The translations under genes and the position numbers were made by a program. The notes under the pieces are model-generated. The model had not been told where the DNA came from, did not search any database, and worked only from the letters and a program-made list of their open reading frames with translations. From Fibrobacter sp. (GTDB lineage Bacteria > Fibrobacterota > Fibrobacteria > Fibrobacterales > Fibrobacteraceae), in assembly GCA_017412605.1 (NCBI GenBank), contig JAFPWY010000001.1, positions 1 to 64,000 on the forward strand: a stretch of DNA of 64,000 bases. The letters are read 5' to 3'. Below are positions 4,113 through 35,727 of this stretch, piece after piece (positions within the stretch are counted from its first letter, which is position 1; every line of letters begins with the position of its first letter).

Positions 4113-5510
4113 ATGGGATCCTTTAAAAGGAAGGTGTTTGCAGGGTGCACGGTATCGGCACTATTCGGCGTAACGACGCTTGCAAGTTCCGCGTTCGCGA
4201 TTATCCCCAACAAGCTGGTATCGGGCGGGTTGCCCGCACACACAGGCGCAACCACGACGGAGTACCTCACCGACGGATACCTCACAAACTGGAAGAGCAG
4301 CAGCGCCAAGGAAATCGCGCTGAACGTGGGCGCCGGGCCGAAAAAGCTCCTGATCAACTGGGAATCCTACGGCGATTGCGCATGGGCCACCGACTTTACC
4401 AACGGATGCGGGCATAGCGGCGTGGCCCTTTCGAACTTCAAGATCTTGACATCCGCCAATTCGACCGACGGAAGCGACGGTGACTGGGAAGAAGCGGCGA
4501 CCGTCAAGAACAACCCCGTGATGGCGCGCGGCGTACAAATCAATTTCGAAGGCAAGTCCTGGTTCAAGTTCGTGAGCGAAGGCGACGTGGGGAAGATTCT
4601 CGAGATCGAGGCATTCGACATGACCAGCGGCGGGAACGACACGTGGTTCTTCATGGGCACGAGCATCAGCCAGATGGGAATCAAGCAGCAGGAGACCGAC
4701 TCCACGACGGCTCAGCTGATACATGCGCGGTTCCCCGAATATACGCCCGCGATGCTCCGCGGGGGCATCGGCTGCATCAACAGCACCGAGGTCGTGGAGC
4801 ACTTGGAAAAGTACCTTGAATACGTGGGCAACGTCAAGTTCTGGGCAATCGAAATGGGCACGAACGATGCCTGGGGAGGCGGCGACTGGAACCTCGCGAC
4901 GTACGTGAAGAACATGCAGACGATTATCGATGCGGCGAAGGCGCACGGCATTACGCCGGTGATTGCGCGCATCATCGCCACGAACCCGGAAAAAACCGAA
5001 AACAAGTGGCAGATAAACCCCAAGTTCCTCACGGCGCTTGACAGCCTTGTCGAGGCAAACGACCTCCCGAAGGGGCCCGACTTCTACAGCTACTTCCTGA
5101 AACATCCCGAACTCCTCGGGAGCGACGGCGTGCACCCGAATTCGGAAGGCGGCGGACAGGCGATGCACCACCTGTGGGCAGAGGCGCTCGCTCCGCTCTA
5201 TGCCGCAGGACATTCCAGTGAAGGCGACAGTACGGTTGTCGGCGACAGCACGGTTGCCGATGACAGCACCGGCACGGATTCCACAACATCTATCCGCGCT
5301 CACGCCCGCAGGACAGCTTTCGCCGTGCCGCAAATCAGCGTGCAGGGGCGGAACATCGTCGTCGGTAACGTCGACGACACGGCGGATGTCCGCATATTCT
5401 CCCTTGCGGGTAACGAAATGCCGCGGCGAACGCTTGCTCCGGGCAGCTACCTGGTGGTCGTCCGCAGCAGGGGAACGCTCTTTACCGAGAAAGTCCAGAT
5501 AAGTCGATAG
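4113..5510 (+). CDS. Secreted SGNH/GDSL-type hydrolase with C-terminal sorting domain
   Basis: 465 aa. The ATG at 4113 follows GGAGAG and encodes a signal peptide (MGSFKRKVFAG to SSAFA); the longer frame from 3996 is rejected. Residues about 30-175 form a beta-rich region of unknown family. The SGNH domain follows: block I is FMGTSIS with Ser184 (GTS instead of GDS), block III is GTND (Asn251), and block V is DGVHP with Asp338 and His341. After a Ser/Thr/Asp-rich linker, the last 75 residues (IFSLAG, LAPGSYLVVV, TEKVQIS) resemble type IX secretion sorting domains. The likely role is deacylation of plant cell-wall polysaccharide or another ester; the substrate is not visible. The gene lies alone downstream of the endoglucanases. 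Confidence 0.82.
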   Translation: MGSFKRKVFAGCTVSALFGVTTLASSAFAIIPNKLVSGGLPAHTGATTTEYLTDGYLTNWKSSSAKEIALNVGAGPKKLLINWESYGDCAWATDFTNGCGHSGVALSNFKILTSANSTDGSDGDWEEAATVKNNPVMARGVQINFEGKSWFKFVSEGDVGKILEIEAFDMTSGGNDTWFFMGTSISQMGIKQQETDSTTAQLIHARFPEYTPAMLRGGIGCINSTEVVEHLEKYLEYVGNVKFWAIEMGTNDAWGGGDWNLATYVKNMQTIIDAAKAHGITPVIARIIATNPEKTENKWQINPKFLTALDSLVEANDLPKGPDFYSYFLKHPELLGSDGVHPNSEGGGQAMHHLWAEALAPLYAAGHSSEGDSTVVGDSTVADDSTGTDSTTSIRAHARRTAFAVPQISVQGRNIVVGNVDDTADVRIFSLAGNEMPRRTLAPGSYLVVVRSRGTLFTEKVQISR

Positions 5511-5530
5511 CGTAAAATGTTCCGTTTCGG

Positions 5531-5566
5531 GCCGTACGGGAACGTGCGGCTTGACCTTTTTTATGC
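5531..5566 (+). terminator. Probable terminator after SGNH gene
   Basis: An 8-bp stem GCCGTACG / CGTGCGGC (one G-U pair) with a GGAA tetraloop is followed after five bases by CTTTTTT. The spacing to the T run is slightly long. Confidence 0.6.
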
Positions 5567-5652
5567 GTATAACTATATTTATGCATAAATAAAGCCGGCG
5601 CAGTTAATACCACTATAAAATGGTTACAAAACTCACGCCAAAAGGAAACATT

Positions 5653-7113
5653 ATGGAATACAAAATTAAAGACATTAACCTTGCAGTGGAAGGCCGCAAG
5701 GAACTCGACCTCGCCGAAACCGAAATGCCGGGCCTCATGGCTCTCCGCAAGGAATACGCCGGCAAGAAGCCGCTCGCAGGCGCCCGCATCATGGGCAGCC
5801 TCCACATGACCGTGCAGACCGCCATCCTCATCGAGACGCTCGTGGACCTCGGTGCCGACGTGCGCTGGGTCAGCTGCAACATCTTCAGCACGCAGGACAA
5901 CGCTGCTGCCGCTGTCGTGGTCGGCAAGAAGGGCACTATCGAGAACCCGCAGGGCGTGCCCGTGTTCGCCTGGAAGGGTGAATCCTTGGAAGAATACTGG
6001 GAAAACACCGCCCGCGCCCTCGTGTGGCCCGACGGCAAGACCGCAGACCTCATCGTGGATGACGGCGGCGACGCCACCATGCTCGTGACCTGCGGCGCCG
6101 AATTCGAAGACGCGGGCAAGGTGCCCGAATTCAACCCCGCAACCGACAGCGAAGAATGGGGCGTGTTCCTCGCCACCTGCCGTAAGATTTTCGAGAAGGA
6201 CCCCAAACAGTGGACCCGCGCCCGCGAAGCTCTCCGCGGCGTTTCCGAAGAAACCACGACCGGCGTGCATCGCCTTTACCAGATGGCCCAGGCCGGCCGC
6301 CTCAAGTTCCCGGCAATCAACGTGAACGATTCCGTGACCAAGTCCAAGTTCGACAACCTCTACGGTTGCCGCCACTCCCTCATCGACGGCATCAACCGCG
6401 CCACCGACGTGATGATGGCCGGCAAGATCGCAGTCGTCTGCGGCTACGGCGACGTGGGTAAGGGCTGCGCCCAGTCCCTCCGCGGCCAGGGCGCCCGCGT
6501 GATCATCACCGAAATCGACCCGATTTGTGCTCTGCAGGCCGCCATGGAAGGCTACGAAGTCAAGACCCTCGACGAAGTCGTTGGCTACGCCGACATCTTC
6601 GTGACTACCACCGGTAACACCGGCATCATCTCTGCCGCGCAGATGAGCAAGATGAAGCACCGCGCCATCGTGGGCAACATCGGCCACTTCGACAACGAAA
6701 TCGACATGGCCGGCCTCAAGAAGATTCCGGGCATCGTCCGCAACGAAATCAAGCCGCAGTACGACGAATGGATTTTCCCCGACGGCCACAGCATCCTCAT
6801 CCTCGCCGAAGGCCGCTTGCTGAACCTCGGCTGCGCTACCGGTCACCCGAGCTTCGTGATGAGTGCCTCCTTCACAAACCAGACCATCGCGCAGATCGAC
6901 CTCTGGCTCAACGCCCAGGGCAAGCAGACCGTCGCCGGCATCAAGTACGAAAGCGGTGTCGTGTACACGCTCCCGAAGATCCTCGACGAAAAGGTCGCCC
7001 GCCTGCACTTGGAAAAGCTCGGTGTTCACCTGACGACCCTCACCAAGGCCCAGGCCGACTACATCGGCGTGCCTGTGGAAGGCCCGTACAAGGCGGATCA
7101 CTATAGGTACTAA
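5653..7113 (+). CDS. ahcY: Adenosylhomocysteinase
   Basis: Cytosolic NAD-dependent enzyme that hydrolyses S-adenosylhomocysteine to adenosine and homocysteine, recycling the methylation by-product. The chosen ATG follows AAAGGA; the in-frame ATG at 5620 has no ribosome binding site. The protein has 486 aa, the long form. Visible signatures are [16 protein letters not shown] near the N-terminus, GYGDVGKG (NAD binding, near residue 265), [11 protein letters not shown], and the family-typical C-terminal end KADHYRY. The upstream leader does not resemble the SAH riboswitch. Homocysteine made here feeds the same pool as MetY (26266-27552). Confidence 0.97.
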
Positions 7114-7991: not shown

Positions 7992-8936
7992 TTACGGGAG
8001 CAATTCCATAAGGCACTTGGCAAAGCTTTCCGTATCGTCGTTATTGATACGTACCGCCTTGCCGTTATTGACTTCCATGGAGTTCCTATACTCGATCTTG
8101 CAAAGCTCTTCCGGCACCGAACTCGCATAGAGATACTCGTAGGTGCAAGTGGAACCGTTCGCTTCTACGGTCGCCTTGTAGGACGAATAAAGGATATCAC
8201 GGCTGTCATACACGATATCCGAGAATCGGATCGAGACAGTCTGATCGTATGCCGAGATGGTTTCGGAGGTTTTCGTCTTTTCTATAACCGATATTCCGTA
8301 TAATTCGATATCGGACGCGACATGATCGCCACCCTTGGTAAACAGGAACTCGCCATAGGCATTACTCAAATGATCAAACTTGTAATGCGAGAAAAGTTCG
8401 TCATAAATCCACGCCACCATCTGCGTCTCCATATAATCCCATGAATCAAAGGTGTCGTTCTCGATGGACATGCAGTTTTCAGCAATGTTGAAATAGTCGT
8501 TCGAGGAATCTTCTTCACTTTCTTCGTCTTTTACGATGGCACCATCGACAAAATTGTATCCCGACAGCACCTTCCACCGCGCCAGGGGATTTCCGTTCTT
8601 GCCGCCCACCATCACAATTTCCTTAAAGCCATCGCCGCGTGCTTTAATAATCAACGTGTCACCGACGAACTGGTAGTCGTAAACAAGGTCCTGGGCAATT
8701 CCTACGCTCGCAAATGTGGGAACAGGGCCCTGCACATCACATTCTGTCCGGTATTTTATGTGATGTAGCGTAATCGTGTTTTGGTTCCTGTCAATCTCGC
8801 TCGCATAGGCATCCCCTTTGCAGGCTCCACCAACCGCACTAGAACCCTTTTGGGAATCATTCGCCGAAGACGAATCATCGCCACAAGCCAGAAGGAACAA
8901 GCTGCAAACTACAAACAAAAAATTCAATAAACGCAT
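7992..8936 (-). CDS. Lipoprotein of the three-member paralogous family (member 1)
   Basis: 314 aa. Signal peptide and lipobox LLACGDD, then a short Ser-rich linker. The body resembles the two lipoproteins at 15708 and 16845: shared features include a YxFxxDTLxIxxxxxG stretch, a VGGxxGNxxxxW motif, a single 'xxFMxSL'-like helix in the middle and a C-terminal FxxCIxxI/FAKCLMEL ending. Function is unknown; probably displayed on the inner or outer membrane. RBS AAGGA precedes the ATG. Identity between members is only moderate, so the duplications are old. Confidence 0.8.
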   Translation of the reverse strand: MRLLNFLFVVCSLFLLACGDDSSSANDSQKGSSAVGGACKGDAYASEIDRNQNTITLHHIKYRTECDVQGPVPTFASVGIAQDLVYDYQFVGDTLIIKARGDGFKEIVMVGGKNGNPLARWKVLSGYNFVDGAIVKDEESEEDSSNDYFNIAENCMSIENDTFDSWDYMETQMVAWIYDELFSHYKFDHLSNAYGEFLFTKGGDHVASDIELYGISVIEKTKTSETISAYDQTVSIRFSDIVYDSRDILYSSYKATVEANGSTCTYEYLYASSVPEELCKIEYRNSMEVNNGKAVRINNDDTESFAKCLMELLP

Positions 8937-33822: not shown

Positions 33823-35727
33823 CTAAACGTAGCTCACGAAGGCAAAGCGGCGGCTGTCGGGCGCCCAGGAATTCACGTTGATGGTTCCCTGTCCACCAAA
33901 GAGTTTCAAGATGCACCTGGGTTCAGTCCAACCGGCAACATCATTTTGCGGCAGGCCGGGCGCCTTGCGTTCCATCAGGCGGATTTCCACGTCCTTGTTG
34001 GGCACATGCTCGCCGGGGCGAACATCCTTCTCGTGATAGGCGACCATTACCACCTTGCTTTTGTCCGGGGAAATATGCGGGAACCATGTATTCCAATGCC
34101 TATCGAACGTCATCTGCACCTGTTCCGAGCCGTCAGCCTGCATGCACCAGGCCTGCATGCGACCCGTACGCACGGAGTTGAACCAGATATATTCCCCGCC
34201 GGCATCGAATTCGGAACCGTCGTTGAGCCCGTGGGCGGTAGTGAGGCGGGTCTCGAGGCCGCCCACAGCGGGAATGGTATAAATATCGTATTCGCCGTTC
34301 CGTTCGGCGCAATAGGCAAGCGTCTTGCCGTCGGGCGTAATCCCGTGCAGGTAACTCGGGCCCAGCGGCGTCACAAGTTCCGGTAAGCGTCCGTCAAAGA
34401 AAATCTTGTAGATGCGCGAAAGCCCGTCTTCTTTGGTATGGTGGCTCACGTAGAGTCCCGAACCGTCTGGCGCCAGCACGTGGTCGTTGTTGCAGTTATC
34501 GACAAAGTGGGAAGGCACTTCCGTAATGGCTCCGCTTTCCAGCTCGTACTTGTAAATGCGACCTTCGCTGTTGTATGTCAGGAACGTTCCGTCATCACTC
34601 CAGTTGGGAGCCTCGATGACCTTGTCAAACTCATGGAGCACACGCGTCTCGCCCGATTCGGTATCGTAAACCTGGAGGCAAGACTTGTTGCCGGAGCGGT
34701 CCCACACCTGCGCGGGCGATTTTTCGAACGGGTAGACCACGCCCCAGCTTGCCCGCAGCGAATCCATCCATTCCATGAACTGCATCGTCTTGGCATGCGG
34801 CATCTGGGGGCATTCCTTGAATCCCTTTTCCAGCACATCCTTGCAGCCGAGCACCTCGTACTCGTAGCAGTTGGAAAGCCTCGGCGGTGTCAGCGTCTCG
34901 CATAATTTTCCAGCCTTGTCAAAGAGCTGGAGTTCCACCATGTCGTTCAGGTTCTGCACCCGAATGAACCCAGCCGTACCGTGGATGACGCCTTCGTTGT
35001 GCGTCGGCGCGACCATCGATGTCTTGAGGTAGGCCCTTTGCCCGTTTTTGTACGTGAGGTTAATCCAGTCCGTCGCATCGACCCCTGTCTCGAAGAGCAC
35101 CGACTTGCTCTCGGTCTTGACGACCGTATTGCCTTCACCACCAATCTGCGGGTCGCCCAGGAACAGATCCGCAAAAGTCAGGCTGTAAATGCCCAGATCC
35201 AGGAGGGCGCCGCCTGCAAGTGAAGGGTTACGCAGCCGCTCGACATGCGAAAGCGCCATCGAAAAATCCGCCTCGACCGATTCCACCTTCCCGATACGCC
35301 CTGCAAGAATCCAGTCCTTGACAATCTTTACCGCCGGCAAGAACCGCGTCCACATCGCCTCGCACAGGAAAACGCCTTTTTCTTCCGCAAGCGCAATCAC
35401 CTCGGAAGCCTGCAGCGCATTTGCGCAAAAAGCCTTCTCGACAAGCACATTCTTGCCCGCATTAATACAAAGCAGCGCAGATTCGTAATGTTGCGAATGC
35501 GGGGTCGCGATGTAGATGAGGTCGACATCGGGATCTTCCACCAGTTCGCTGTAGCTGCCGTATGCTTTTTGGAAACCGTACTGTCGGGCAAAATCGTCCG
35601 CCTTCGCCTGCGTACGCGACGCCACTGCATAGGCCTCGACACCGTCTCCCCTTTTTTCTAGGCACTTGACCGCCACGGCCATCTTCGTAGCGATATGCCC
35701 GCAACCCAAAATCGCAAATTTCATCAT
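33823..35727 (-). CDS. Gfo/Idh/MocA oxidoreductase fused to a TolB-like beta-propeller
   Basis: 634 aa. Residues 1-335 form a complete NAD(P)-dependent Gfo/Idh/MocA oxidoreductase: GCGHIATKM (Rossmann), YIATPHSQHYESAL, VEKAF (EKP motif with Ala for Pro), GGALLDLGIYSLTF, and the family end SWGVVYPFE. Residues about 345-634 are repeating WD40/PD40-like blades (APNWSDDGTFLTYNSEG, LAPDGSGLYVSHH, ITPDGKTLAYCAERNGEYDIY, ISPDKSKVVMVAYHEKD, SWAPDSRRFAFVSY), as in oligogalacturonate-lyase/TolB-like proteins. No signal peptide, so the propeller must be cytoplasmic. RBS GAGG before ATGATG. It lies 50 nt upstream of lemA. Substrate probably a sugar or uronate derivative; this is inference. Confidence 0.85.
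   Translation of the reverse strand: MMKFAILGCGHIATKMAVAVKCLEKRGDGVEAYAVASRTQAKADDFARQYGFQKAYGSYSELVEDPDVDLIYIATPHSQHYESALLCINAGKNVLVEKAFCANALQASEVIALAEEKGVFLCEAMWTRFLPAVKIVKDWILAGRIGKVESVEADFSMALSHVERLRNPSLAGGALLDLGIYSLTFADLFLGDPQIGGEGNTVVKTESKSVLFETGVDATDWINLTYKNGQRAYLKTSMVAPTHNEGVIHGTAGFIRVQNLNDMVELQLFDKAGKLCETLTPPRLSNCYEYEVLGCKDVLEKGFKECPQMPHAKTMQFMEWMDSLRASWGVVYPFEKSPAQVWDRSGNKSCLQVYDTESGETRVLHEFDKVIEAPNWSDDGTFLTYNSEGRIYKYELESGAITEVPSHFVDNCNNDHVLAPDGSGLYVSHHTKEDGLSRIYKIFFDGRLPELVTPLGPSYLHGITPDGKTLAYCAERNGEYDIYTIPAVGGLETRLTTAHGLNDGSEFDAGGEYIWFNSVRTGRMQAWCMQADGSEQVQMTFDRHWNTWFPHISPDKSKVVMVAYHEKDVRPGEHVPNKDVEIRLMERKAPGLPQNDVAGWTEPRCILKLFGGQGTINVNSWAPDSRRFAFVSYV

Follow-up and report, generated by a model that had tools for sequence, protein, structure and literature searches.

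The locus and its two domains

We describe a gene of Fibrobacter sp. (family Fibrobacteraceae) in which an oxidoreductase of the Gfo/Idh/MocA type and a propeller domain are joined in one protein. Proteins with the 'Fibrobacter succinogenes major domain' are in keeping with a source in Fibrobacter, which digests plant fibre, or close to it. It is found in a stretch of 64,000 nucleotides, which we call the window (assembly GCA_017412605.1, contig JAFPWY010000001.1, positions 1 to 64,000). Its parts are the following, all of them on the reverse strand:

33823..35727, reverse (-): whole fusion gene, 634 amino acids, a single open frame, stop codon included in the coordinates
34723..35727, reverse (-): Gfo/Idh/MocA oxidoreductase of the dihydrodiol-dehydrogenase type, residues 1-335 (Pfam, sequence and structure match to 2o48)
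35434..35436, reverse (-): Lys98 of the EKA motif (Lys in 29 of 29 rows)
35185..35187, reverse (-): Tyr181, aligned with the Tyr of 2o48 (Tyr in 29 of 29 rows)
34687..34722, reverse (-): linker, residues 336-347 (pattern P...W.R...[KR]S)
33826..34686, reverse (-): predicted six-bladed propeller of the 2OJH/Atu1656 type, residues 348-634 (2ojh match, strands of the models)
33889..34614, reverse (-): stretch from E372 to Q613 with nearly invariant polar residues (each in 44 or 45 of 45 rows)

No stop codon interrupts the frame, and YPFE closes a complete oxidoreductase at residue 335. Pfam finds GFO_IDH_MocA at 2-121 (E 5e-22) and GFO_IDH_MocA_C3 at 136-255 (E 3e-16). The C-terminal half has PD40 repeats (E 4e-12). 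The Rossmann stretch begins straight at the N terminus, which, read by eye, gives no sign of a signal peptide. On the open frame, the YPFE end and the signal peptide the first-pass annotation, made from the sequence alone, was right. An AlphaFold2 model of the whole fusion, based on 63 aligned rows, has a predicted local distance difference score (pLDDT) of 92.9 and a predicted template modelling score (pTM) of 0.78.

By its profiles, the oxidoreductase half is a member of the Gfo/Idh/MocA family. The Rossmann domain scores 79 bits with PF01408 (cut-off 24), and the C-terminal alpha/beta domain 60 bits with PF22725 (cut-off 27). Its nearest solved relative is 2o48, a dimeric dihydrodiol dehydrogenase / NADP+ D-xylose dehydrogenase, which it resembles end to end (E 3e-49, residues 3-336; VIA-align Z 41.8, root-mean-square deviation (rmsd) 2.0, 320 aligned). 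The 2o48 enzyme is not fused, and it has EKP where the fused half has EKA. EKP is also the form found in most of the wider family. The change to EKA had already been pointed out: in our alignment of 29 oxidoreductase rows, 25 have Ala (A99) after Lys98 and four have Pro. Lys98 and Tyr181 are conserved in all 29, and they correspond to the Lys/Tyr pair that is catalytic in 2o48. Since EKA is the commonest form in this lineage and the pair is intact, it is a trait of the lineage and not a sign of damage. This half would be expected to oxidise sugars with NAD(P).

The propeller does follow the oxidoreductase, as was first noted, but the seven blades supposed at that time become six when we read the strands of two AlphaFold2 models, one of the fusion and one of the propeller alone. 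In the fusion model, the first strands of the blades start near residues 372, 412, 458, 501, 545 and about 617, which gives six blades; strands 349-355 and 361-367, which are N-terminal, close the last one. The propeller-only model (45 rows) has a pLDDT of 92.8 and a pTM of 0.89. Its best structure match is 2ojh (Z 41.1, with 40% identity over the alignment), TolB follows with about 25-27, and other propellers are below 23. Among the best folds that come after 2ojh are TolB and the designed Pizza6, which have six blades as well.

The 2ojh structure, solved since 2007, corresponds to Atu1656 of Agrobacterium tumefaciens and is labelled as a 'putative TolB'. It matches the whole propeller half in sequence (E 3e-60) and fold (VIA-align with this half of the fusion: Z 41.2, rmsd 1.7, 274 aligned). 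Atu1656 is a stand-alone protein, unlike the fused propeller, and we found no function for it in the literature searched. Three other assignments were tried and rejected. TIGR02800, the TolB model, gives 88.7 bits, far below its cut-off of 343.15. PF14583, the family of the oligogalacturonate lyases of PL22, does not match at E<=1, and PL22 enzymes are seven-bladed while the models have six blades. PF08450, the family of SMP-30 and gluconolactonase, does not match at E<=1 either. Neither PL22 nor SMP-30 appears among the 50 matches listed in the fold comparisons, which by itself excludes neither. With the profile of the propeller family, two structures of oligogalacturonate lyases are reached, although weakly: 3c5m (E 6e-5) and 3pe7 (E 3e-4).

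Several polar residues of the propeller are nearly invariant. E372, N413, D415, H416, D503, N517, R520, H551 and H574 are found in all 45 propeller rows, and H461 and Q613 in 44. They hold over many phyla and in different partner contexts. The TolB of the same genome lacks the conserved His at the positions that could be aligned (read from the alignment). E372, N413-H416, H461, D503 and H551 sit on the first strands of blades, so they would face the channel, provided that the blades of the model are ordinary ones. The conservation of ten of these polar residues, all but R520, suggests an active site.

Propellers of this type are abundant: one scan detected at least 586 encoded relatives, with stand-alone copies in many genomes. 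In many phyla (L119, L126, L127, L107, L112, L144 and others) proteins of about 500 amino acids have this propeller at their C-terminal end. The N-terminal domain of these proteins, roughly 220 amino acids long, matches DUF1349 weakly in 4 of 21 cases and has no convincing match among solved structures.

Reality and origin of the fusion

The fusion of the two domains is genuine. The first-pass annotation had made this depend on the presence of the fusion in relatives, and the full-length frame is found in 30 of 36 genomes of the same genus. The linker pattern is conserved in all 21 aligned fusions. Calculated against 20 relatives, the ratio of nonsynonymous to synonymous polymorphism (pN/pS) ranges over 0.12-0.32 for the two halves, so both of them are under purifying selection. 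Three other genomes of the genus (G026, G035 and G004) contain only the oxidoreductase, which ends within about five residues of YPFE. In the remaining three (G010, G021 and G031, 81-82% complete), neither half is found as a close match. The case of G026 is clear (L034, 2434-3441): the propeller is cleanly missing at the syntenic place, where a 335 amino acid oxidoreductase ending in YPFEK is followed by LemA and an M48 peptidase.

The propeller profile was also run on 167 genomes of the phylum. It matches at E <= 1e-47 in 71 of them, the next best match being 6e-22. All 71 belong to the family of the window and 67 to its genus, where 13 of 80 members have no match at this level (these numbers were counted by hand from the match list). 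The strong matches lie in open frames of at least 632 amino acids, except for pieces at contig edges, while matches at 6e-22 and weaker resemble TolB. The matches listed include no stand-alone propeller gene. The presence of both halves in one frame was checked in the 30 relatives, the window and six further genomes (in G164 and G139 a contig end truncates the sequence), and the remaining genomes were judged by the length of their open frames. Other genera also have both halves in one frame (G107 and G166, with G164 cut by the contig end), as does G125, and G135 has two copies. The frame of G156 has an interruption behind the oxidoreductase, which we have left as it stands.

A sequencing or assembly error joining two genes would fit the three relatives whose oxidoreductase ends close to YPFE, and also the interrupted frame of G156. 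This explanation has a negligible probability: it is ruled out by the 30 open frames of the genus, the conserved linker and the scan of the phylum.

Phylogenetic trees place the fusion in a single lineage. In the oxidoreductase tree, 27 fused rows and the three without a propeller form one clade (99/99), adjoined by two genes from Bacteroidia (100/99). The propeller tree groups these 27 in one clade (100/100), adjoined by a Parabacteroides plasmid gene and two genes from Bacteroidia (100/97). The three rows without a propeller are nested at different places in the oxidoreductase clade, which fits a fusion formed once and a propeller later lost three times. Such losses suggest that the oxidoreductase can work alone.

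The near relatives in Bacteroidia are separate genes, in agreement with the earlier remark that such propellers are usually separate proteins. One genome (G287) has a near relative of each half, located on different contigs, and with up to three candidates scored per genome no match spans both halves in 396 Bacteroidia genomes. At E <= 1e-45, the propeller is present in 25 of these genomes and the oxidoreductase in 29; 13 have the two together, compared with about 1.8 expected by chance (Fisher p 3e-10). These counts are lower bounds, as at most three candidates per genome were scored, and the centre of the scan (G168) was picked for having the propeller. The co-occurrence may be due in part to genome size and way of life.

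Gene neighbourhoods

Some stand-alone propeller genes are found close to sugar genes. We have viewed 14 plasmid loci, four of which (L057, L059, L060 and L063) have a Gfo/Idh/MocA gene near the propeller gene. In L059 and L063, from Agrobacterium and Rhizobium plasmids, the two genes have 4 bases in common, and a DUF1080 gene precedes the pair (confirmed with PF06439 in L059, as annotated in L063). The pair of L059, from Agrobacterium larrymoorei, lies at 4988-5977 and 5974-6864. The oxidoreductases of these two loci match the fused one at 32% and 30% (E 1e-40 and 4e-41). In Sporocytophaga (L120) the order is Gfo/Idh/MocA, AP_endonuc_2, propeller, aldo/keto reductase and GH3.

In a set of 94 loci, 19 have an AP2, DUF1080, Gfo or ThuA gene within 2.5 kb of the propeller and 3 have one more than 3.5 kb away. 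These near and far stretches add up to about 443,000 and 531,000 bases, respectively. All 19 near loci fall among the 57 without NAD+ synthase. The models used were seeded from proteins beside plasmid-borne propellers and are biased towards families already seen there. A less biased check used 77 of the 94 open reading frames (ORFs) of each set, after 17 near and 17 far ones had been dropped by eye, mostly for overlapping a longer ORF. Of the 77 ORFs that lie no more than 500 bases from the propeller, six belong to AP_endonuc_2, which is the commonest Pfam family there and is not among the 25 commonest families of the 77 distant ORFs. The near set also has two members of 3keto-disac_hyd. The propeller is thus indeed linked to keto-sugar genes, though by no means everywhere. 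These neighbourhoods back the idea of the first-pass annotation that a dehydrogenase and the propeller work together.

Other neighbours are also found. In Rhizobiaceae (L053, L065-L106) the propeller gene usually comes after the gene for NAD+ synthase. MazG is the second commonest family within 500 bases in loci outside Rhizobiaceae (5 of 77 ORFs), and 5 of the 94 loci, on plasmids (L056, L057, L059, L062 and L063), have a HbpS-like 'heme-degrading' gene close to that of the propeller.

Possible functions

The fusion is a conserved and stable two-domain enzyme candidate. We tentatively propose, with a probability of about 0.4, that it is a cytoplasmic two-step sugar enzyme, in which the propeller acts on a keto-sugar that is produced, or else removed, by the dehydrogenase. 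The oxidoreductase half would oxidise a sugar hydroxyl with NAD(P)+, or reduce a keto-sugar back. The propeller would act on that keto-sugar, probably with the help of a bound metal and most likely by cleaving or isomerising a 3-keto-glycoside, and the single chain could hold the unstable intermediate close. The invariant residues and the gene neighbours point to a catalytic propeller, while gene order elsewhere and known pathways of C3 oxidation point to a keto-sugar as its substrate.

Levoglucosan and O-glycosides are degraded by C3 oxidation, elimination, hydration and reduction (PMC7676230, PMC10628242), and DUF1080 proteins hydrolyse 3-keto-glycosides (PMC9007349). The levoglucosan pathway (LgdA, LgdB1, LgdB2 and LgdC) and the eliminase operon for O-glycosides of Agrobacterium combine a C3 dehydrogenase with partner enzymes acting on the keto-sugar, and the partner genes resemble those beside stand-alone propellers. 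These systems consist of separate proteins, unlike the fusion, and term searches of PMC7676230 and PMC10628242 find no mention of a propeller or TolB.

Several observations weigh against this proposal. No sugar genes adjoin the fusion: its neighbours are a 337 amino acid protein with no Pfam match, LemA and an M48 peptidase. DUF1080 was not found in the genome of the window and its sole AP_endonuc_2 protein is deoxyribonuclease IV, so the remaining kinds of protein of the described 3-keto pathways are not found in it. Three relatives dispense with the propeller. In Sporocytophaga, the best match to the fused oxidoreductase is on another contig and not beside the propeller. NAD+ synthase accompanies the propeller in 37 of the 94 loci (36 within 2.5 kb), mostly from Rhizobiaceae. 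In the less biased check, Gfo/Idh/MocA is not among the 25 commonest families near the propeller, with one member in the far set. No activity for this propeller was found in the literature searched.

The propeller might instead be a non-catalytic module for binding or oligomerisation, which positions the oxidoreductase or its substrate. Propellers often serve as scaffolds, TolB, the closest well-known relative after 2ojh, is a binding protein, and three relatives retain the oxidoreductase without a propeller. We consider this rather unlikely: against it are the nearly invariant His, Asp, Glu and Gln residues over many phyla and in varied partner contexts, and the stand-alone copies found in many genomes. 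The main catalytic alternative is a dehydrogenase coupled to a lactonase. The oxidoreductase would oxidise an aldose, for example D-xylose, at C1 to a lactone, which the propeller would hydrolyse. The closest characterised oxidoreductase oxidises D-xylose (PMC2228372), and xylonolactonase, of the SMP-30 type, is a six-bladed propeller with sugar-related chemistry whose metal is held by Glu, Asn and Asp (PMC9795676). The genome of the window has no detected SMP-30 protein, so the lactonase step would be vacant, and one stand-alone propeller gene comes after a gene for an enzyme of the mandelate-racemase type. However, the propeller does not match the SMP-30 family, the neighbours of stand-alone relatives are more often keto-sugar genes, and the genome has one ILVD_EDD protein. 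A lactonase appears doubtful.

The first-pass annotation had suggested pectin or uronate metabolism, with a propeller similar to oligogalacturonate lyase feeding a uronate dehydrogenase. The weak profile similarity to these lyases and a stand-alone propeller in a region with kduI and kduD are in its favour. Nevertheless, PF14583 does not match the propeller and is found in none of 21 genomes (that of the window and 20 related ones), and the blades are six. We consider this suggestion very improbable. A more ambitious version of the keto-sugar proposal would be a redox-neutral glycosidase in one chain: C3 oxidation with bound NAD(P)+, cleavage by the propeller, and re-reduction of the released 3-keto-sugar. 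The propeller would then belong to a new class of eliminases or hydrolases which depend on a metal and act on 3-keto-glycosides. In GH4 enzymes, one domain does what is here assigned to two. This version seems improbable.

Returning to the two-step keto-sugar enzyme, the fusion joins a presumed sugar-oxidising enzyme and a propeller in one protein, and the two halves may do successive steps on the same sugar. Neither this fusion nor a function for the 2OJH-type propeller was found in the literature searched, and PMC5442110 turned out to have no bearing on them. A natural fusion to a sugar oxidoreductase, together with matching neighbourhoods elsewhere, makes the propeller a directly testable enzyme candidate. 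If it does act on keto-glycosides, this would be a new fold for a route of glycan breakdown which does not use ordinary glycosidases.

The genes flanking the fusion differ in most of the relatives compared, so we do not infer an operon from the window; G026 keeps the same order without the propeller. At 7992-8936 (-), the window also contains a 314 amino acid ORF with no Pfam match, 97% identical to one at 5407-6351 of L188, near one of the two fusion copies of G135. It is possibly a mobile gene.
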